From Bacteroidaceae bacterium (GTDB taxonomy: Bacteria; Bacteroidota; Bacteroidia; Bacteroidales; Bacteroidaceae), in the NCBI GenBank assembly GCA_017546505.1, contig JAFYWV010000013.1, forward strand, positions 1 through 37,627: a DNA stretch of 37,627 bases, written 5' to 3'. The notes beneath the pieces were generated by a model, which searched no databases, was not told the origin of the DNA, and saw nothing but the letters and a program-made list of their open reading frames with translations. How positions within the stretch are numbered: the first letter of the stretch is position 1; each line of letters begins with the position of its first letter. Below are positions 20,176 to 28,955 of the stretch, one piece after another. The position numbers and the translations under genes are program-made.

Positions 20176-21612
20176 TTACTTCCTGAGTGTAAACTCGAAT
20201 TTCAAACCACCACTCGGGCGGTTGGTAACGTTGATGTTTCCACCGTGGAATTGCACGGCGTGCTTCACAATTGCAAGCCCAAGCCCTGTGCCACCCATCT
20301 GGCGCGAACGCCCCTTGTCGACACGGTAGAACCGCTCGAACAGGCGTTGTAGCTGTTTCTCTTCAACACCGCAACCGTCATCCTCAAAAGTGATTTTGCA
20401 CAGCTTGTCGTTGTTCTCAATCAACGAAATGTAGATATTCCTGCCGCCTGAATAGGCAATGGCATTTTCTGTAAGGTTGCGGAATATTGAGCCAATCAGC
20501 GACAGGTTCCCATCAACAAATACCTGTTCTTTGAAATCGGTGTGCAGCTCAAAACGCTCGTTCTCGGGCATAATCTCAAGTTCTGCTGCAATTTCGTTTA
20601 TGATATTGTTTATCTCGACAGGTTCTTTACCAATCAGTTGGCTGCCGTCCTCCATTCGTGTAATGAGCGAGACGTCGCCCAACAGTCTACGCAGTCGCTC
20701 GTTGTTGGTATAGCATCGTTCTATAAGTTCCTGTCGTTTCTCTTCGCTAAGGTTAATGCCCGAAAGTAATGTCTCAAGGCACACTTGGATTGATGCGACA
20801 GGGGTTTTTAGTTCGTGATTTATATTGTTGGTGAGTTGTCGTTTTATGCGTATCTTCTCCTGCTCCTCTCGCAAAGTAGCCTCGTGGGCAATATCCCTGT
20901 CCTTTATGGTCTGTTGCCATTGTGTATATAGTTGTACAATGTGGTTGGAGATTGAGCCTAGCTCGTCGTTTGGGAACATCTCGCCGTCATCAAACGACTC
21001 GCCTTTTTCGGCCTTTGCCGCAAAACGGTTAAGTCGTTCAATATTCTTTCCCAATCTGCGTGTGGCAAAATAGACAAGAACGCTCATTGCAAGGCTTATT
21101 GACATCATTGTTCCCAAAAAGGTCCAGTCTGTCTTCAACAGTTCCTTCAGCGCATCGGATTGTGGTATGGCTGTGCGCACAACGAACTCCTTTCCGCGTG
21201 TTGCCGAATAGAAATATTCACGTCCGTCACTTGCCGATAGTCGTTCGGTGTTGTGTCCTTTTCCTTTCTTGAGCGCATCGGCCACCTCGGGGCGCAGACA
21301 GTGGTTGTCGAGTGAATCAACTGCGAGCATATTGTCATAGATGACTGTTCCGTCGAGTGAAATTATTGATATGCGCAAATCCTCAAATGGCAACGTGTGT
21401 GTGTTGACATACTCCTCAAACGATGGAGTATTTTCAATGGTCTGCAATAGAGTAGTGTTGTAGAGCTGCAACTGCGAGTTGAGAAATTCCGATTTATACT
21501 CTTTCTCTCTTATATACTGAAAACCTACAAAGCATAGTATGATACTCCAGAAAAACGCAAGCAGCATCAAAAACAGCCGCTTGTGGTATGATAACTTAAT
21601 CACGGAACCCAT
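20176..21612 (-). CDS. sensor histidine kinase, PhoR-like by context
   Basis: A 478-residue membrane kinase. Transmembrane helices at about residues 13-33 and 166-184 enclose a periplasmic sensor region of about 130 residues. A HAMP-like linker leads to HisKA with the phospho-acceptor His at about 266 (NNINHELKTPVASIQ). The ATP-binding domain has the N box RNLTENAIAYS, G1 DDGCGVEE, F box FERFYRVDKG and G2 GGTGLGLAIVKH. All catalytic motifs are intact. The ATG at 21612 overlaps the response regulator end by 17 bp; a GTG at 21603 is an alternative. The pair lies divergent from a porin-pst operon with PhoB-like sites, which suggests phosphate sensing, although E. coli PhoR itself has only a small periplasmic part. 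Confidence 0.9.
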   Translation of the reverse strand: MGSVIKLSYHKRLFLMLLAFFWSIILCFVGFQYIREKEYKSEFLNSQLQLYNTTLLQTIENTPSFEEYVNTHTLPFEDLRISIISLDGTVIYDNMLAVDSLDNHCLRPEVADALKKGKGHNTERLSASDGREYFYSATRGKEFVVRTAIPQSDALKELLKTDWTFLGTMMSISLAMSVLVYFATRRLGKNIERLNRFAAKAEKGESFDDGEMFPNDELGSISNHIVQLYTQWQQTIKDRDIAHEATLREEQEKIRIKRQLTNNINHELKTPVASIQVCLETLLSGINLSEEKRQELIERCYTNNERLRRLLGDVSLITRMEDGSQLIGKEPVEINNIINEIAAELEIMPENERFELHTDFKEQVFVDGNLSLIGSIFRNLTENAIAYSGGRNIYISLIENNDKLCKITFEDDGCGVEEKQLQRLFERFYRVDKGRSRQMGGTGLGLAIVKHAVQFHGGNINVTNRPSGGLKFEFTLRK

Positions 21613-22297
21613 AGCCAAATCCAGAACGTGTTACAATATATGAACCGTATGTACCTATTTTGGAACGCAGACGAGTGATGTTCACGTCTATGGTACGGTC
21701 GAGTACCACAACCTCATCACTCCATACACGGCTGAGAATCTGTTCGCGTGAGAGAATTTTTCCACGGTGCGAAATGAGATAGGCCAACAGCTCAAATTCT
21801 TTTTTTGCAAGTTTTACCTCTTCGCCATCTACCGTACAACGCTTGAACTCCATATCAAGTTGCAACCCCTCGACCTTCAGCACATTTGGTTTTTCGTTGG
21901 TTGCCGCCATAGCACTCTTTTGTCCCGATGTGCGGCGCAAAACGCTTTTCACCCTGGCAATCACATTGCGTACAGTATAGGGCTTCATAATATAATCGTC
22001 GGCACCAATGTTCAGCCCCATAACCATATCATCCTCGCTATCGCGAGCGGTGCAAAAAATTATAGGTATATCAGCTGTCGTTATATCGGCCTTCATCATT
22101 TTTGCCATTTTTATGCCACTTATTTCTCCCATCATAATATCAAGGAGAATGAGTGAATAGCTCTTGAGGTCAAGTGTCAGGGCTTCTTCGGCGCTGAATG
22201 CAATGTCCACATCGTATCCCTCGTTTTCAAGGTTCAACTTGAGCACCTCACATAGAGTCTCCTCATCGTCCACAATCAATATACGTTCTGTTGCCAT
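21596..22297 (-). CDS. OmpR/PhoB-family response regulator, PhoB-like by context
   Basis: A 233-residue regulator. The receiver domain (about 1-125) has the acidic pair D10-D11, phosphorylation site D53 (LILLDIMMGE), T82 in the CTAR segment and K104 in MKPYTVRN. The C-terminal winged helix (about 140-233) includes KKEFELLAYLISHRGKILSR and DRTIDVNITRLRSKIG, the recognition and wing region of PhoB-type proteins. It is the first gene of the minus-strand pair and the overlapping gene is its kinase. Two arrays of 11-bp-spaced half-sites in this window are its likely targets, because OmpR/PhoB proteins bind as head-to-tail dimers with about that spacing. Confidence 0.93.
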   Translation of the reverse strand: MATERILIVDDEETLCEVLKLNLENEGYDVDIAFSAEEALTLDLKSYSLILLDIMMGEISGIKMAKMMKADITTADIPIIFCTARDSEDDMVMGLNIGADDYIMKPYTVRNVIARVKSVLRRTSGQKSAMAATNEKPNVLKVEGLQLDMEFKRCTVDGEEVKLAKKEFELLAYLISHRGKILSREQILSRVWSDEVVVLDRTIDVNITRLRSKIGTYGSYIVTRSGFGYGFRD

Positions 22298-22319
22298 ATA
22301 CTCATATATTATCCTGTTG

Positions 22320-22327
22320 CAAAAATA
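22320..22327 (-). promoter_or_regulatory. candidate -7 element of the response regulator/kinase operon
   Basis: The minus strand reads TATTTTTG at 22327-22320, an exact TAnnTTTG match, 22 bp upstream of the response regulator ATG. No clear -33 TTTG is seen at the right distance; weak half-sites at 22354-22382 lie further upstream. Confidence 0.4.
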
Positions 22328-22390
22328 GGGAGAAAAACCGAACTTGTGATTACATCAACTGATATTTAATAAAAATGTAACATTTATTAC

Positions 22391-22441
22391 TGTAACAACC
22401 TTTCAACCGCTTCTTAACCTTTATGTAACATTTATGAAACC
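22391..22441 (+). promoter_or_regulatory. candidate Pho box: five direct half-sites at 11-bp spacing
   Basis: Half-sites begin at 22391 (TGTAACA), 22402 (TTCAACC), 22413 (CTTAACC), 22424 (TGTAACA) and 22435 (TGAAACC). Each is exactly 11 bp from the next; the shared core is NNNAAC(A/C). The last ends 9 bp before a -7 element, so the array takes the place of a -33 element, as for PhoB-activated class II promoters. It stands upstream of the porin-pst operon and beside a PhoB/PhoR-like pair. Confidence 0.7.
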
Positions 22442-22450
22442 TCTTCCCCA

Positions 22451-22458
22451 TACCTTTG
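22451..22458 (+). promoter_or_regulatory. -7 element of the porin-pst operon
   Basis: TACCTTTG is an exact TAnnTTTG match, starting 16 bp after the start of the last Pho half-site. It predicts a start near 22465 and a leader of about 95 nt before the porin ATG at 22561. No TTTG -33 is present at the usual distance, as expected for an activator-dependent promoter. Confidence 0.6.
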
Positions 22459-22560
22459 CCATCGAAAAGTTAAAGGGTAACAAATGCTATTGCGGGAGAA
22501 GGCTAGCATCTCAAGCAGCGGTATATGTTCTCTGTAAATAAGAAAACAATTTAAAAGACT

Positions 22561-23541
22561 ATGAAAACAAAATTTATTTTGGCGGGCATTTTGGCCTGCA
22601 TCGGTTTGACAGCTCAGGCACAGGAGGTAAAACGGGAAGAGCCTAAAGGTAAAGCAATCGTTCAGGTGTTCGGTAATTTGAACGCCGGTTTCAGCAGCGG
22701 CGATGTGAATGTCGGGTTTGATTTGGAACGTAGTTACATCGGTTACGAGTACAAGCTCGCTCAAGGCTTTTCTGTAAAAGGCGTAATGGATATAGGTAAA
22801 TCCAACGATGTCAGCGACTACCAACGTATTGCTTACATTAAGAATGCAATGCTTTCGTGGAAAACGGGAAATCTGACATTGAACGCAGGTTTAATCTCAA
22901 CCACTCAATTCAATTTTCAAGAGAAATTCTGGGGATACCGTTATATAATGAAATCTTTCCAGGATATGTATAAGTTCGGTAACAGTGCCGACTTGGGTAT
23001 TTCTGCCTCGTACAAATTTGCCGACTGGATATCTGCCGATGCTATAATCGTTAATGGCGAAGGCTATAAGAAGATACAGAAAGGCAACGGCTTCAACTAT
23101 GGTCTGGGTGCAACATTGACAGCTGTTAAAGGCTTTCAGATACGTCTGTATGGCGGCTTTAACGACAGCGGTGAGGGTGGCAAAGCCGGGGTGGTGAATA
23201 TGGCGGGTTTCATTGGCTATAAGCACGAGAATTTTACCCTTGGTGCAGAGTATAATCATATGCTCAATGCTTCGGGCAAGGAGGGTAATGACCAGTTCGG
23301 CTATTCGGTATTCGGCTCGGTGAATTTGCCAAAGAATGTATCATTGTATGCACGTTTCGATGATTTGTACTCAAAGGATAATTGGAATATATCAAAAGAT
23401 GAGCAGGCCGCTATTATAGGTGCGCAGTTCAAACTAGGAAAGTATGTCAAGCTTGCTCCTAACTTCAGAATGAACTTGCCAAAGGCCGAGGGTGCTGAAA
23501 ACAAGTATTCTGCATACGTCAGCTGTTACTTTGGGTTGTAA
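22561..23541 (+). CDS. outer-membrane porin, probably for phosphate uptake
   Basis: A 326-residue beta-barrel. It has a signal peptide (MKTKFILAGILACIGLTAQAQ) and then many amphipathic strands such as GFDLERSYIGYEYKLAQGFSV and MLSWKTGNLTLNAGLIST, ending in CYFGL. The style resembles OprO/OprP-type phosphate-selective porins, though shorter and without a certain match. Its position, 30 bp before pstS and behind a candidate Pho box, makes outer-membrane passage of phosphate the natural role. Selectivity is inference from context. Confidence 0.8.
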   Translation: MKTKFILAGILACIGLTAQAQEVKREEPKGKAIVQVFGNLNAGFSSGDVNVGFDLERSYIGYEYKLAQGFSVKGVMDIGKSNDVSDYQRIAYIKNAMLSWKTGNLTLNAGLISTTQFNFQEKFWGYRYIMKSFQDMYKFGNSADLGISASYKFADWISADAIIVNGEGYKKIQKGNGFNYGLGATLTAVKGFQIRLYGGFNDSGEGGKAGVVNMAGFIGYKHENFTLGAEYNHMLNASGKEGNDQFGYSVFGSVNLPKNVSLYARFDDLYSKDNWNISKDEQAAIIGAQFKLGKYVKLAPNFRMNLPKAEGAENKYSAYVSCYFGL

Positions 23542-23571: not shown

Positions 23572-24633
23572 ATGAAAAAGATTTTTTCGTCAATTGTGAC
23601 ATTGGCAGTTGCCCTCGCTATTACAGCTTGTGGCGGTAATTCAAACGATGGAGGCCGTAATGCTCAGGAACTCTCAGGAGCAGGTGCAACATTCCCTCTT
23701 CCGTTCTATAATGTAGTGTTTGAGAACTTTTCTCAGGTAAACGGTGATGCCGTTGCGTACGGAGGTATAGGTTCTGGTGGTGGTGTGCGTAACTTACGCG
23801 ACAAAATTGTTGATTTTGCAGGCAGTGACGCTTTCCTTTCCGATAAGGAGATGGCTGAAATGAATCCGGTAATCCATATTCCTACCTGTATGGGAGCTGT
23901 GGTTCTGGCATATAACCTTGACGGTGTAAGCGAACTCAAACTCTCGGGCGAGGTTATTGCCGACATTTTTGCAGGCAATATAAAGATGTGGAACGATGAG
24001 CGTTTGGTTGCTCTTAACCCCGATGCGACTCTTCCGGCTGAAGCTATCATCCCTGTTTATCGTTCAGACGGCTCTGGTACAACATTTGTGTTCACTGACT
24101 ATCTGACAAAGGTAAGCCCGATGTGGGCATCCAATTTCGGTGCCGGCAAGTCTGTCAACTTCCCTTCGGGTCAGGCAGCAAAGGGTAATCCCGGTGTGGC
24201 CGGTGTCATCAAGCAGACCAAGAACTCCATTGGTTATGTAGGCTCGGAGTATGCATTTGCTCAGAAGATTCCATACGCAAGAATCCGTAATTTGCGTGGT
24301 GAATTTGTTGAACCTAATGCTAATTCAATCTCTGCTGCCGCTTCGGGTGAAATCCCGGCTGATACTCGTTGTTCTATCACTAATTCTGATGCGGCAGGTG
24401 CTTATCCAATCTCAACCTTCACCTGGATGATTATCTACAAGGAACAGAATTACTCCGGCCGCTCAATGGAGCAGGCTGTGGCGACGCTTGACCTTTTGCG
24501 GTATATCCTCTCTGACGAGGCACAGAACATTACCTCTGAAGTACACTATGCACCGCTTCCTGCCAAGGCAAAGGAATTCAGTATAACAAATTTGAAGACC
24601 GTTACTTTTGACGGTGTGGCAATATTGCAATAA
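23572..24633 (+). CDS. pstS: phosphate ABC transporter substrate-binding lipoprotein
   Basis: A 353-residue periplasmic binding protein. MKKIFSSIVTLAVALAITAC gives a lipobox with Cys20, so it is membrane-anchored. Phosphate-site motifs are present: SGAGATFPLPFY near residue 37, GIGSGGGVRN (about 67-76), DFAGSDAFL, and YRSDGSGTTFVFTDYL (about 163-178). It captures phosphate and delivers it to PstCA. It lies 30 bp after the porin gene and 9 bp before pstC, without an internal promoter. Confidence 0.96.
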   Translation: MKKIFSSIVTLAVALAITACGGNSNDGGRNAQELSGAGATFPLPFYNVVFENFSQVNGDAVAYGGIGSGGGVRNLRDKIVDFAGSDAFLSDKEMAEMNPVIHIPTCMGAVVLAYNLDGVSELKLSGEVIADIFAGNIKMWNDERLVALNPDATLPAEAIIPVYRSDGSGTTFVFTDYLTKVSPMWASNFGAGKSVNFPSGQAAKGNPGVAGVIKQTKNSIGYVGSEYAFAQKIPYARIRNLRGEFVEPNANSISAAASGEIPADTRCSITNSDAAGAYPISTFTWMIIYKEQNYSGRSMEQAVATLDLLRYILSDEAQNITSEVHYAPLPAKAKEFSITNLKTVTFDGVAILQ

Positions 24634-24642
24634 CAGAGGTCT

Positions 24643-25500
24643 ATGAACGACAAGATATATAAAGTTATATTATTCATAGCTGCACTGATAATGCCGATAG
24701 TGTGCGGGGGCGTTGTTTACGCCCTCGTCACTGACGCCTATGAAGCGTTTGAGCATTTCGGGTTCTTTAAGTTCCTTACCTCTTCCGAGTGGAGCTACAC
24801 CGAAGGTGCAGAACAATACGGTGCGTTGCCATTCATTACGGGTACACTGATGACTACCTTGCTGGCGCTTATCTTCTGTATTCCTTTCTCCCTGCCCGTA
24901 GCATTGTTTGTGGGCGAGTATTTCAAAGGAACACGAGTGGCGGCGGTGTTAAGTACCGTTACCGATTTGCTTGCTGGCATTCCCTCAATCATTTACGGCT
25001 TGTGGGGGTTCTATACGCTCCGTCCGTTGATTATGGCTCTCAATATCTCGCCACAAGGCTCTGGTGTTCTCACTGCTTCATTGGTACTGGCGATTATGAT
25101 TGTGCCATACGCAGCTTCACTGAGTGCCGAGTTTATCAAGATGGTGCCGAACGACTTGAAGGAGGGGGCATATAGTCTTGGTGCAACCCGTGCCGAGGTG
25201 GTACGTAAGGTGATTTTCCCCGTTGCAGGCTCGGGAATATTCTCATCGTATATCTTGGCTATCGGTCGTGCATTGGGTGAGACTATGACCGTAACGATGC
25301 TTATCGGAAATACCAACAACATTCCCGACTCAATAACCTCTACTGGAAACTCAATGGCATCCATTATTGCCAACCAGTTCGGTGAAGCGGATGGATTGAG
25401 ACTCTCTTCTCTGATAGCGATAGGTTTTATCCTGTTCCTGATAACAGCCCTTATCAATATGATAGGTAAGATTATGATTAAACGTGCAAGAATTGCTTAA
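24643..25500 (+). CDS. pstC: phosphate ABC transporter permease PstC
   Basis: A 285-residue inner-membrane permease with about six helices. The first begins near residue 7 (VILFIAALIMPIVCGGVVYAL). The EAA-type coupling loop is AYSLGATRAEVVRKVIFPVAGSGI, and IGRALGETMTVTMLIGN is a family signature. It forms the channel with PstA. The order S-C-A-B matches known pst operons and the next gene starts 3 bp later. Confidence 0.95.
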   Translation: MNDKIYKVILFIAALIMPIVCGGVVYALVTDAYEAFEHFGFFKFLTSSEWSYTEGAEQYGALPFITGTLMTTLLALIFCIPFSLPVALFVGEYFKGTRVAAVLSTVTDLLAGIPSIIYGLWGFYTLRPLIMALNISPQGSGVLTASLVLAIMIVPYAASLSAEFIKMVPNDLKEGAYSLGATRAEVVRKVIFPVAGSGIFSSYILAIGRALGETMTVTMLIGNTNNIPDSITSTGNSMASIIANQFGEADGLRLSSLIAIGFILFLITALINMIGKIMIKRARIA

Positions 25501-25503
25501 CTT

Positions 25504-26370
25504 ATGACGAAACTGAAAATAAAAAACAGATTGGCACAAGACCGCCTGATGCTGTGGAGTGTATGTCTGTTCGCAGCGCTGACAGCAGTGCCGTTGCTTG
25601 CCATCTTGGGCGAAGTGCTGTTGCGTGGTTATGACCAACTCTCGTGGTCGTTCTTTACAGAACCTACCCCAACGGCATATAAAGCAATGAAGGCCATCGA
25701 AGCGGGAGCACCCATACCGGGTGGCATAGCCAACGGTATCATCGGTACGATGATTATGCTGGGGATGGCTGTCGTTGTTGCAGTCCCTTCGGGTATTTTA
25801 TGCGGTGCATATCTGGCAGAGAATCCAAAGAACCGTTTTGCCCAAGTTGTAAGTTACCTTACCGACTTGCTGCAAGGTACACCATCGGTCATTATCGGTA
25901 TTATAACCTACATTTGGGTAGTCGTTCCTATGAAGGGATACTCGGCAATTGCTGGTAGTGTGGCGCTTTGTATAATGATGCTTCCGCTTATCATCCGTTC
26001 TACCGAGGAGACGCTTAAAATCCTCCCTGCATCACTAAAGGAGGCCGGGCTTGCTCTTGGTGGCAACAAGGCAAGAGTAATGATGAAAGTGCAACTTCCT
26101 GCTGCTTTTGGCGGAATCTTTACAGGTGTCTTGCTTGCTATTTCGCGAGTGATTGGTGAGACAGCACCACTTATGTTTACTGCGCTAGGTTGCTCGTTTA
26201 TCCGCTTCGCGGTCGATAAACCCATCTCTGCTGTGCCTCTGCTTATATGGGAATTCTTTAACGATCCCAACCTGCAAGAACTAATTTGGGGTGCATCGCT
26301 CTTCCTCTTGTTGTTTGTACTTACTTTGAACTTATTATCAAAATATCTTGCTAAAAAATGGAATCAGTAA
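25504..26370 (+). CDS. pstA: phosphate ABC transporter permease PstA
   Basis: A 288-residue permease paired with PstC. The first helix (LWSVCLFAALTAVPLLAILGEVLL) follows a basic start. The coupling loop reads GLALGGNKARVMMKVQLPAAFGGI and is followed by AISRVIGETAPLMFTALG, the typical PstA signature. Its last 13 bases overlap the start of pstB, suggesting tight co-translation. Confidence 0.95.
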   Translation: MTKLKIKNRLAQDRLMLWSVCLFAALTAVPLLAILGEVLLRGYDQLSWSFFTEPTPTAYKAMKAIEAGAPIPGGIANGIIGTMIMLGMAVVVAVPSGILCGAYLAENPKNRFAQVVSYLTDLLQGTPSVIIGIITYIWVVVPMKGYSAIAGSVALCIMMLPLIIRSTEETLKILPASLKEAGLALGGNKARVMMKVQLPAAFGGIFTGVLLAISRVIGETAPLMFTALGCSFIRFAVDKPISAVPLLIWEFFNDPNLQELIWGASLFLLLFVLTLNLLSKYLAKKWNQ

Positions 26371-27125
26371 CACCTATTCTTGAGTTTAAGAAAACTTGTG
26401 TATCATATACAAAGCAGACAATGGCTGTAAAATATGTATCGGCTGCCATTGAACGAAATACCATCACGGCTATTATGGGACCTTCGGGATGCGGTAAATC
26501 AACGCTCCTACGTGCGGTAAACCTGATGCACAACCTCTATCCGAACATTCGCGTTGATGGTGAAATATTGCTTAATGGCGAAAATATCCTTGCGATGGAA
26601 CCTATCGATGTGCGTCGCCGTGTGGGTATGGTCTTCCAACGTCCTGCACCGTTCCCCACAATGAGCATCTATGACAATGTACTGTCCGGATTTGTATTGA
26701 ACGGTATCAAACTTTCAAAGGTTGAGAAAGATGCTACGGTTGAACGCTGTTTACGAAGTGTAGCACTTTGGGATGAGGTAAAGGACGTACTCAATAAGAA
26801 AGGTACATTCCTTTCTGGCGGTCAGCAGCAGCGATTGTGCATTGCCCGTGCCTTGGCAATGAAACCCGATGTTCTTCTGATGGACGAGCCTACCTCAGCA
26901 CTTGACCCGATTGCGACCAAACATATCGAAGAACTGCTCTTGGAGTTGCAGAAAGAGGTTACAATCCTTATTGTGACGCACAATATGGGACAGGCAAAAC
27001 GTATATCGTCAAAGTCAATGTTTATGTACTTGGGTGAGTTGGTTGAGTACGGCGACACCGAAACGGTGTTCTCTAAACCATCAGACGAACGAACCAAAGC
27101 ATATTTGACCGGCAAGATGGGGTAA
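26358..27125 (+). CDS. pstB: phosphate ABC transporter ATPase PstB
   Basis: A 255-residue ATPase. Walker A is GPSGCGKST, followed by the PstB-specific LLRAVNLMHNL, signature LSGGQQQRLCIARALAM, Walker B VLLMDEPTSALDP, and H-loop TH in ILIVTHNM. The Q-loop region VGMVFQRPAPFPTMSIYDNV is also PstB-like. It powers PstCA. The start overlaps pstA by 13 bp. Unlike many pst operons, no phoU gene follows; instead a Na+/phosphate transporter with a PhoU-like tail begins 90 bp later behind its own promoter. Confidence 0.96.
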   Translation: MESVTPILEFKKTCVSYTKQTMAVKYVSAAIERNTITAIMGPSGCGKSTLLRAVNLMHNLYPNIRVDGEILLNGENILAMEPIDVRRRVGMVFQRPAPFPTMSIYDNVLSGFVLNGIKLSKVEKDATVERCLRSVALWDEVKDVLNKKGTFLSGGQQQRLCIARALAMKPDVLLMDEPTSALDPIATKHIEELLLELQKEVTILIVTHNMGQAKRISSKSMFMYLGELVEYGDTETVFSKPSDERTKAYLTGKMG

Positions 27126-27136
27126 CCATAATCATC

Positions 27137-27176
27137 TTTAACCGATAGATAACATACTTGTAATATTTTTGAAACA
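27137..27176 (+). promoter_or_regulatory. candidate Pho box: four direct half-sites at 11-bp spacing
   Basis: Half-sites begin at 27137 (TTTAACC), 27148 (GATAACA), 27159 (TGTAATA) and 27170 (TGAAACA), each exactly 11 bp apart, with the same NNNAA(C/T)(A/C) core as the array before the porin gene. The last half-site starts 16 bp before the -7 region, the same offset as in the other promoter. Confidence 0.6.
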
Positions 27177-27185
27177 TATTCGATG

Positions 27186-27193
27186 CTATTTTG
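27186..27193 (+). promoter_or_regulatory. weak -7 element of the Na+/Pi cotransporter gene
   Basis: CTATTTTG keeps the TTTG half of TAnnTTTG but not the TA. It starts 16 bp after the last Pho half-site and about 23 bp before the ATG at 27216. A weak -7 behind activator sites fits a promoter that depends on activation. Confidence 0.4.
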
Positions 27194-27215: not shown

Positions 27216-28955
27216 ATGGAAATATTACAACTATTTACACTGTTGGGAGCATTGGGAATGTTCCTCTACGGTATGAACCTTATGAGTTCGGGCCTTCAGA
27301 AGGCTGCCGGTGACAGGTTGCGTGGCTTTCTTTCGGCAATGACATCAAATCCTTTCAAGGGAGTTATGACCGGACTGGGAGTGACATCTGTCATACAATC
27401 ATCATCGGCAACAACGGTGATGGTGGTGAGTTTTGTGAATGCGGGATTGCTTACCCTCACGCAGGCCATCGGTGTTATTATGGGTGCAAATATAGGAACA
27501 ACCGTTACTGCTTGGATGGTTTCTTGGCTTGGCTTCAAAGCCGATATTTCAATCCTGGCAGTGCCGCTGATGCTCTTTGGTTTTCTGTTCTCAAATTCAA
27601 AGAAAGACAAACGCAAGAATATCGGTGAGCTGATTGTCGGTTTCAGCCTTCTTTTCCTGGGACTCTCTTTTATGAAAGAGTCTGTACCCGACCTGCGCCA
27701 GACCCCCGAGGTGTTGGAGTTTGTCACGGCTTGGTCGTCTCACGGCTTTGGCTCGGTACTGCTGTTTCTTGCTTTTGGTACAGTGCTTACACTTGTACTG
27801 CAGTCATCATCGGCAACGATGGCTATCACGCTTATTATGCTCAGTATGGGTTGGATACCATTCGATATGGCCTGTGCAATGGTTCTTGGTGAGAATATTG
27901 GTACAACCATCACTGCAAACATTGCTGCTTCGGTTGGTAACACTCAAGCCAAACGTGCCGCAATGTCCCACACAATTTTCAATGTCTTTGGTGTTGTCTG
28001 GGCGTTGATACTCTTTAAGCCATTTTTGAAACTTGTTGGTTATATAACAGAAACACTATTTGGTTTGCCTAATCCCGCAGCAGATGGATTTGTTGTTGCT
28101 GACTCTACATCTGTTGAAGGTACAGCAGCACTTTATGGTTTGTCGATGTTGCATACTCTGTTCAATACCATCAACACATTGTTACTTGTGTGGTTCACAC
28201 AGTGGATTGCAAAGGCTGTGAGCTGGATTATCCGCACACCCGAAAATCAAGAGAAAGAGGTGTTCAAACTCAAATATATCTCAGCCGGACCTCTTGCAAC
28301 CCCAGAGTTGTCGGTAGAGCAGGCCTTTGACGAGATTGTCCATTTTGCACAGATTTCAAAGAATGGGGCAGTGTATGCAAAGAGTGCAGTAGAGAATGCC
28401 GATGGTGACAAGTTCGAGGATTTGAGGGGAAAGCTTGTGAAATACGAGGAGATTTCCGACCGCATAGAGTACGAAATTGCAACATTCCTCAATGGCGTGT
28501 CGGCCGAGGAAGTGAGTGAAAGCACCTCGCTGAAGATAAAGGCTATGTACAAGATAGTGGGTGAACTGGAGTCTTTGGGCGATGCGGGCGAGACAATAAG
28601 CCGCATACTTTCAAGGAAAAATATACACAAGAAGAGGTTTGATGCCGATGCCATCAAGAACCTCAATACAATGGGCGATGCCGTGCTTGCTGCATACGAT
28701 GTGATGATAGAAAACCTTGAAGCAGCCCACAATGGAACGCTCACTGAAATTTCCAATGCTTATAATGCCGAGCAGCGCCTAAACACTCTGCGCAACAATT
28801 TCAGGGATTCCGTAATAGAGGATATGGAGAACGGCGCCGGCAACTACCAGGCAATGGTCTACTATATGGATATTATAAACGCCTACGAACGTATGGGTGA
28901 TTTTATGATAAATATTTCACAAGACCTTGAACGTGGGTTTGTTGTAAAACGATAA
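27216..28955 (+). CDS. Na+/phosphate cotransporter (NptA/YjbB-like) with C-terminal PhoU-like domain
   Basis: A 579-residue transporter. The membrane part (about 1-340) contains two inverted Na+/Pi cotransporter repeats, each with the motif QSSSAT: Q61 (VIQSSSATTVMVV) and Q197 (VLQSSSATMAITL). Each is followed by a GxNIGTT segment (GANIGTTVTA, GENIGTTITA). The C-terminal 200 residues are helical and PhoU-like (for example LRGKLVKYEEISDRIEYEIATFL and YQAMVYYMDIINAYERMGDFMINI). It should move phosphate with Na+ across the inner membrane. It has its own Pho-box-like promoter and a strong terminator after it, so it forms a separate unit next to pst. Confidence 0.92.
   Translation: MEILQLFTLLGALGMFLYGMNLMSSGLQKAAGDRLRGFLSAMTSNPFKGVMTGLGVTSVIQSSSATTVMVVSFVNAGLLTLTQAIGVIMGANIGTTVTAWMVSWLGFKADISILAVPLMLFGFLFSNSKKDKRKNIGELIVGFSLLFLGLSFMKESVPDLRQTPEVLEFVTAWSSHGFGSVLLFLAFGTVLTLVLQSSSATMAITLIMLSMGWIPFDMACAMVLGENIGTTITANIAASVGNTQAKRAAMSHTIFNVFGVVWALILFKPFLKLVGYITETLFGLPNPAADGFVVADSTSVEGTAALYGLSMLHTLFNTINTLLLVWFTQWIAKAVSWIIRTPENQEKEVFKLKYISAGPLATPELSVEQAFDEIVHFAQISKNGAVYAKSAVENADGDKFEDLRGKLVKYEEISDRIEYEIATFLNGVSAEEVSESTSLKIKAMYKIVGELESLGDAGETISRILSRKNIHKKRFDADAIKNLNTMGDAVLAAYDVMIENLEAAHNGTLTEISNAYNAEQRLNTLRNNFRDSVIEDMENGAGNYQAMVYYMDIINAYERMGDFMINISQDLERGFVVKR

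Follow-up and report, generated by a model that had tools for sequence, protein, structure and literature searches.

Genes and promoter elements at the pst locus

The window, that is, the whole stretch of 37,627 nucleotides analysed here, belongs to an incomplete genome assembly (2.62 Mb in 130 contigs, 86% complete) and includes a porin-pstSCAB gene cluster facing divergently transcribed genes for a PhoB-type regulator and a PhoR-like kinase (Table 1). The regulator passed the cut-off of NF053854, which is the Bacteroides-type PhoB model of NCBIfam, but the kinase remained under that of the PhoR model, its best stretch covering residues 251–480 of 480. No NCBIfam match was obtained for the porin-like protein. 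On the other side of the cluster, from 29129 onward, V-type ATPase genes may come next (a subunit E-like protein below the NCBIfam cut-off, followed by a DUF2764 protein).

Table 1. Genes and predicted regulatory elements around the pst cluster of the window
Feature	Positions	Strand	Evidence or remark
PhoR-like histidine kinase	20176..21618	-	NCBIfam NF053855, 478.2 bits, below cut-off 500
PhoB-type response regulator, receiver and winged helix	21596..22297	-	NCBIfam NF053854, 344.9 bits, cut-off 270; Pfam
-7 element TATTTTTG of the divergent phoB promoter	22320..22327	-	
Near-invariant 19-bp element TGTTACATTTTTATTAAAT / TRTTACATTTTYATTAAAT, phoB promoter	22364..22382	-	
Half-site TGTAACA	22391..22397	+	Fifth, in phase; score 7.1; unconserved in most of the genus
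Half-sites TTCAACC, CTTAACC, TGTAACA, TGAAACC	starts 22402, 22413, 22424, 22435	+	Period exactly 11 bp
Core Pho box (predicted), four 7-bp half-sites	22402..22441	+	Sequence; genus conservation
-7 element TACCTTTG of the porin-pst promoter	22451..22458	+	Without TTTG at -33
Outer-membrane beta-barrel, porin-like, first gene after the box	22561..23541	+	Weak Pfam BBP2, 23.2 bits, cut-off 26.2
pstS	23572..24633	+	TIGR00975 above cut-off
pstC	24643..25500	+	TIGR02138 above cut-off
pstA	25504..26370	+	TIGR00974 above cut-off
pstB	26358..27125	+	Best NCBIfam TIGR00972, 337.3 bits, just under cut-off 343.2
Second, weaker Pho box (predicted)	27137..27176	+	Half-sites 27137, 27148, 27159, 27170
-7-like element CTATTTTG	27186..27193	+	16 bp after the last half-site start of the second box
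Na/Pi cotransporter with PhoU domain, after the second box	27216..28955	+	Pfam Na_Pi_cotrans and PhoU

Between the two divergent gene sets, five NNNAAC(A/C) half-sites follow each other from 22391 at intervals of 11 bp, with the letters and spacing that had been claimed for them. Promoters of Bacteroidota carry TAnnTTTG at -7 and TTTG or TTG at -33. The first of these motifs is matched by TACCTTTG, whose first base lies 16 bp past that of the last half-site (22435), again as proposed, leaving 9 bp from the end of the heptamer. The position of the -33 element corresponds to 22424–22436 (TGTAACATTTATG), within which neither TTTG nor TTG was found; judged from these letters and the 9 bp gap, the array does lie in place of a -33 element.

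Exact runs of AAC[AC] reached a maximum of five copies in the whole window at period 11 on the plus strand, and a maximum of two or three at the remaining periods from 7 to 15. When the whole window was shuffled 60 times preserving dinucleotides, the longest run at periods 7–15 on both strands was of two (30 times), three (29 times) or four copies (once), and 5000 such shuffles of positions 22298–22560 (plus strand, same periods) gave no run longer than three. The linkers of the array are of three kinds, ACCT, GCTT and TTTA (the latter twice), and the half-sites also differ from one another, so that the array is no recent tandem duplication. TGTCAT was absent from all five half-sites.

The 27137 site, also part of the original prediction, proved real, with four half-sites and a TTTG at the right position, although it is weaker than the main box, as its second half-site, GATAACA, scores -0.9 and its -7 reads CTATTTTG. 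Located between pstB and the Na/Pi-PhoU gene, it could provide the latter with a separate phosphate-controlled start inside the cluster.

Conservation and specificity within the genus

PhoB relatives were found in 96 of 150 genomes, and the comparison covered the regions upstream of phoB in the 30 loci that matched best, that of the window among them. Of these 30 loci, 28 contain two half-sites spaced by 11 bp before a -7 element, and in all 28 sites the gap from the start of the last half-site to the -7 was 16 bp, in a search that allowed from 10 to 28 bp. Four half-sites, equivalent to 22402–22441, are kept in the genus and the 22391 position is not. Consequently, a box of five half-sites was ruled out as the conserved unit, as the 22391 position varies among the 28 genus sites; the five-fold array that had been described is present in the window, but its conserved part comprises four units. 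In two of the 28 sites (L005 and L008), the outer two half-sites are the phoB-side element of Table 1, shifted by 1 bp. The gene following the box varies across these loci, being a porin gene or, in several of them, a Na/Pi transporter gene. L007 and L009 are the two loci where no box adjoins phoB. The L007 genome has its box at a greater distance, in front of the porin gene that belongs to the pst operon, and the L009 genome has it about 2.2 kb ahead of pstC, leaving room in which a porin gene and pstS would fit. In addition, genome G043 showed a further box (L230, 7741–8265; E 2.8e-14) that is followed by another porin-like stretch, located past the Na/Pi gene.

The phoB-side element is near-invariant across the 30 loci. 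On the plus strand it reads as two half-sites 11 bp apart, TTTAATA (22365) and TGTAACA (22376), both of them fitting TKTAAYA, the consensus drawn from 43 sites selected by score; its best half-site fit is on the strand opposite phoB. It extends from 38 to 55 bp upstream of the start of the phoB -7, which puts it out of phase with the box positions by about 5 bp. The spacing between the element and the phoB -7 is constant in 29 of the 29 loci where that -7 was found, and the spacing between the element and the box ranges from 23 to 194 bp across the box-carrying loci; because only the former is fixed, the element was ruled out as a part of the pst-side box. A search allowing one mismatch in 44 genomes gave 33 matches in 31 genomes, and two for a reversed control pattern. 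Thirty matches were exact, 29 of them upstream of a phoB and the other (G017) next to a pst box where a contig ends, and among the three with one mismatch, one was at phoB and two were elsewhere. In other genera, an ordinary box instead of the element was found before phoB in 10 of 20 upstream regions, and this was also the case in all four of the named genomes described below. The element is possibly a PhoB site in the opposite orientation, or the site of another regulator.

For a genome-wide view, a sequence-only profile (R1) was built from the 28 genus sites. In the window genome, R1 recovered the main box, a training site, with E 1.6e-13 and the 27137 box, a non-training one, with E 3.9e-5; with the third match at E 0.017, only these two were significant. 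Across 44 genus genomes (the window's included, under stricter filters), 68 matches were detected at E<=0.01 in 37 genomes, and none in the other seven at that threshold. Fifty-nine of them reached E<=2e-4, 28 being training sites and 31 non-training, and 57 of the 59 lay within 6 kb of phoB or pstC, as placed by distance to these genes and not by the gene directly after each match. The remaining two preceded Na/Pi-transporter genes elsewhere. The nine weaker matches (E 6e-4 to 0.0084) included one near pst and one before a PHO4-family phosphate transporter. No recognisable phosphate gene followed the other seven (L218 and L220–L225), which were dropped as targets after inspection of their open reading frames; at L220, the only one of them submitted to Pfam, the following gene encodes a primary-type sigma factor. 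The enrichment before phosphate genes expected from the original prediction was thus found in the genus and, as described below, in other genera and several named genomes.

The code in other genera and named relatives

The geometry was also examined with a test that presupposes no spacing, in which 21 of the 28 genus sites supplied both a pooled half-site matrix and a -7 matrix, and the two were combined over 91 cells (periods 8–14, gaps 10–22). Period 11 with gap 16, hereafter (11,16), was the best cell in 12 of 13 pst upstream regions from ten other genera and in 10 of 20 phoB upstream regions of other genera, another cell being best in the remaining 10. It was also best in five, and not in 15, of 20 regions preceding genes for class II PstC proteins, which are more distant and mostly longer. 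From named genomes, 80 further loci with class II PstC were collected, a few of them non-Bacteroidota by title, and among the 77 that were long enough, (11,16) was best upstream of pstC in 26 and not in 51, with four for the next cell. As for the pstC and phoB upstream regions without (11,16), some operons may start elsewhere.

Eight Bacteroides-group loci were examined, six of which (L145, L147, L149, L150, L152, and L212) showed six in-phase positions before TTTCTTTG at pstC. In these, the outer three positions score well and the second and third from the -7 poorly, the first being poor too in L212. The genome of L144 also contains the box, as found in the pstC upstream scan and again at L253.

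Another profile (R2) drew on 31 sites chosen by score, 28 of them from other genera; these 31 included eight phoB promoters but no promoter of a PHO4 or ppk gene. The genomes scanned with R2 were those of Bacteroides oleiciplenus, B. timonensis, Parabacteroides massiliensis, and Mediterranea massiliensis, the Bacteroides relatives being scanned in place of B. fragilis, which is absent from the 80 loci. The best eight matches in these four genomes, none of them a training site, preceded phoB (four) and a PHO4-type permease (four). At E<=1e-3, there were 20 matches, which in addition to these eight comprised one before pstS, one before ppk, two before pstC (both promoters used in training), one before an outer-membrane protein beside pstS, three before SusC-type receptors, one before a lipoprotein-SusC-SusD locus with a PHP-domain protein, two before a small orthologous protein, and one 409 bp away from groES; at least this last one looks like a chance match. 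These identities rest on Pfam for a single phoB, permease, and SusC copy each as well as for pstS and ppk, and on likeness for the rest; the outer-membrane protein beside pstS gave no Pfam match.

Some of the remaining sites touch on other functions. Box-like sites stand before SusC/SusD loci (L267–L270), downstream of which are found a GH92 protein (L267, and L268 by likeness), an endo/exonuclease-phosphatase family protein (L269), and the PHP-domain protein (L270). In two Bacteroides species (L242 and L246), a box-like site precedes a small protein of about 60 residues (MKLNRNDYAIEAT...), whose L242 copy showed no Pfam match. In B. timonensis, a match of E 0.0102 (L273, 1730–6699) was detected before genes for a metallophosphoesterase, a glycosyltransferase, ppk, and ppx in a row, a gene order reminiscent of the PlcP-glycosyltransferase pair by which marine bacteria remodel their lipids; a paper on such remodelling reported that PlcP gene clusters carry putative Pho boxes and that Bacteroidetes have PlcP homologues (PMC4796936).

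The sole R2 match in Rufibacter hautae (E 1.5e-5) was located before a Porin_O_P gene, about 2 kb before pstC by coordinates. In two of three Flavobacterium genomes, the best match (E about 9e-4) preceded a PhoU_div gene, assigned by Pfam in one case and by likeness in the other, and the sole match in the third (E 0.0385) was before a gene with no apparent link to phosphate. Furthermore, when 700 bp ahead of class II pstC were scanned in the three Flavobacterium species (L153, L154, and L160), (11,16) was never the best cell. We conclude that a predicted code of four to six in-phase half-sites, ending 16 bp before the -7, marks Bacteroidales phosphate genes, and that the same code probably extends more widely in Bacteroidota, a phylum-wide claim that is weaker than the Bacteroidales one because of the Flavobacterium results.

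Relation to known Pho boxes and proposed mechanism

The array has the properties by which Pho boxes are generally recognised: direct repeats of 11 bp with seven conserved and four less conserved positions, a PhoB-family response regulator encoded in the genome and adjoining the box, a sequence position about 10 bp before the -10/-7 in place of the -35/-33, and recurrence before phosphate-acquisition genes together with rarity elsewhere. As its period and promoter position match those of known Pho boxes, the predicted box is of a known kind. The Pho box of E. coli stands in for the -35 element. It consists of head-to-tail 11-bp units of 7 conserved positions plus 4, located 10 bp upstream of the -10 (PMC4415409, PMC1906773). 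The array shares with it the head-to-tail 11-bp units and a PhoB-family regulator, with 9 bp here between the heptamer and the -7, but differs in its half-site (TKTAAYA versus CTGTCAT), in having TAnnTTTG at -7 instead of a -10, and in its four to six half-sites. The E. coli-type half-site CTGTCAT did not appear in the consensus of the 43 sites; set against TGTCATA, TKTAAYA differs mainly at two positions.

Two other systems come closer in sequence. A DAP-seq study of PhoP from Riemerella anatipestifer, also a member of Bacteroidota with a PhoB/PhoP-family regulator, defined a motif from 583 peaks, which was compared with that of ArcA and whose top conserved letters, TTTAACA, are close to the half-site found here (PMC9603813). 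Unlike our sites, that motif comes without a geometry relative to the -7 in the text available to us, and the main text of the study contains neither "direct repeat" nor "pst" (PMC9603813). The cyanobacterial SphR Pho box, in which 8-bp units, three or more in tandem, are separated by 3-bp linkers (CTTAACCT; PMC1906773), has the same period and nearly the same half-site, but belongs to another phylum and another promoter type. The expected departure from CTGTCAT holds for the consensus, but the sequence is less alien than had been supposed, as it resembles the half-sites of both Riemerella PhoP and SphR.

Alignment with E. coli PhoB placed the recognition helix of the window PhoB at DRTIDVNITRLR. 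Most DNA-contacting residues of E. coli PhoB are kept in it, namely Arg193, Val197, Arg201, and Arg203 (E. coli numbering), together with Thr194 in seven of eight aligned Bacteroidales proteins. All eight Bacteroidales proteins have Asn198 and Thr200, where E. coli PhoB has His198 and Arg200, and this pair of residues could explain why the half-site is TKTAAYA rather than TGTCATA.

The closest experimental data come from B. fragilis, whose PhoRB system has a PhoB-type regulator of the same order. Its PhoB binds a 512-bp pstC promoter fragment in EMSA, and pstS is arranged head to head with pstCAB-phoU (PMC3547664). Transcripts of phoB, phoR, and pstC rose more than tenfold at low phosphate by qPCR, and the wild-type array listed no change of pstCAB under this condition (PMC3547664). 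Deletion of phoB lowered pst transcripts 103- to 542-fold and those of a phosphate permease 52-fold, and abolished the induction of BF2645 (ppk) and BF2646 (ppx), the second ppk gene, BF3714, being induced without PhoB (PMC3547664). The text available to us defines no binding site, with no occurrence of "consensus" and a single one of "Pho box", in general terms (PMC3547664). The boxes that we detected in relatives precede genes corresponding to these PhoB-dependent genes.

Taken together, the array is very probably a Pho box, a predicted PhoB operator that replaces the -33 element and would switch on porin-pstSCAB. At low phosphate, PhoR would phosphorylate PhoB, which would bind head to tail, one molecule per 11-bp TKTAAYA half-site, forming two tandem dimers on four half-sites. 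The last half-sites cover the -33 place, so that bound PhoB would take over the -33 contact and, by analogy with E. coli PhoB, recruit RNA polymerase to the -7, turning on porin-pstSCAB. The 27137 box would act likewise for the Na/Pi transporter gene. This type of switch is already known; for its sequence code in Bacteroidales we found no earlier description, nor any PhoB recognition code for the order, in the open-licence literature, and subscription papers may hold one.

Many regulators of the OmpR family bind 11-bp direct repeats, and an operator of another OmpR/PhoB-family member would look similar. A candidate would be an additional PhoB-like protein, a paralogue of about 50% identity encoded by part of the genus, which in G001 shares the contig of pst; still, we regard this as improbable, since the window genome, at 86% completeness, has a single PhoB-family match at E<=1e-40, the code stands before phoB itself in the four named genomes, and its targets match the PhoB-dependent genes of B. 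fragilis. Regarding the paralogue itself, the G001 copy (G001:C33:42599-43261) lies on the contig of phoB and pst, other genus members have one too, and in some genus genomes it is the sole PhoB-like match.

Still less credible is that PhoB binds the array but represses, or that the box mainly serves the divergent phoBR promoter. Both promoters share the intergenic region, and B. fragilis phoB is induced at low phosphate (PMC3547664), but the spacing of the box is constant relative to the -7 facing the porin/pst or Na/Pi genes, it is the 22364–22382 element and not the box whose spacing to the phoB -7 is constant, and loss of phoB in B. fragilis makes pst transcripts collapse (PMC3547664). An AT-rich UP-like promoter element or a local tandem duplication, with no dedicated regulator, would suit the AT-rich, repetitive sequence near the -7, but is just as hard to sustain when strong genome-wide matches are confined to phosphate loci and the spacing stays constant in diverged sequences whose neighbouring bases drift.

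Beyond the PhoB operator at this locus, a broader reading can be offered tentatively, which we consider somewhat less likely to be right than wrong as a whole: that Bacteroidota share an ancestral Pho-box code, in which TKTAAYA half-sites, four to six of them in phase at 11-bp intervals, end 16 bp before the -7 and a row of PhoB replaces the -33 contact of the phylum's divergent primary sigma factor, and that the genus has, in addition, rebuilt the autoregulation of phoB around a single near-invariant PhoB site, facing away from phoB and half a helical turn off-phase relative to the usual positions of the box.

Phosphate control is important for the lifestyle of Bacteroidota, and in B. fragilis PhoB regulates survival in abscesses, as the title of the corresponding paper states (PMC3547664). 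A code of fixed geometry makes the Pho regulons of the group predictable from genomes, including phoB, the PHO4 permease, pst, porins, ppk/ppx, the phosphoesterase-glycosyltransferase pair, and perhaps some SusC/SusD loci. In addition, it offers a clean test of how an activator would replace the -33 contact of the unusual promoter of Bacteroidota.
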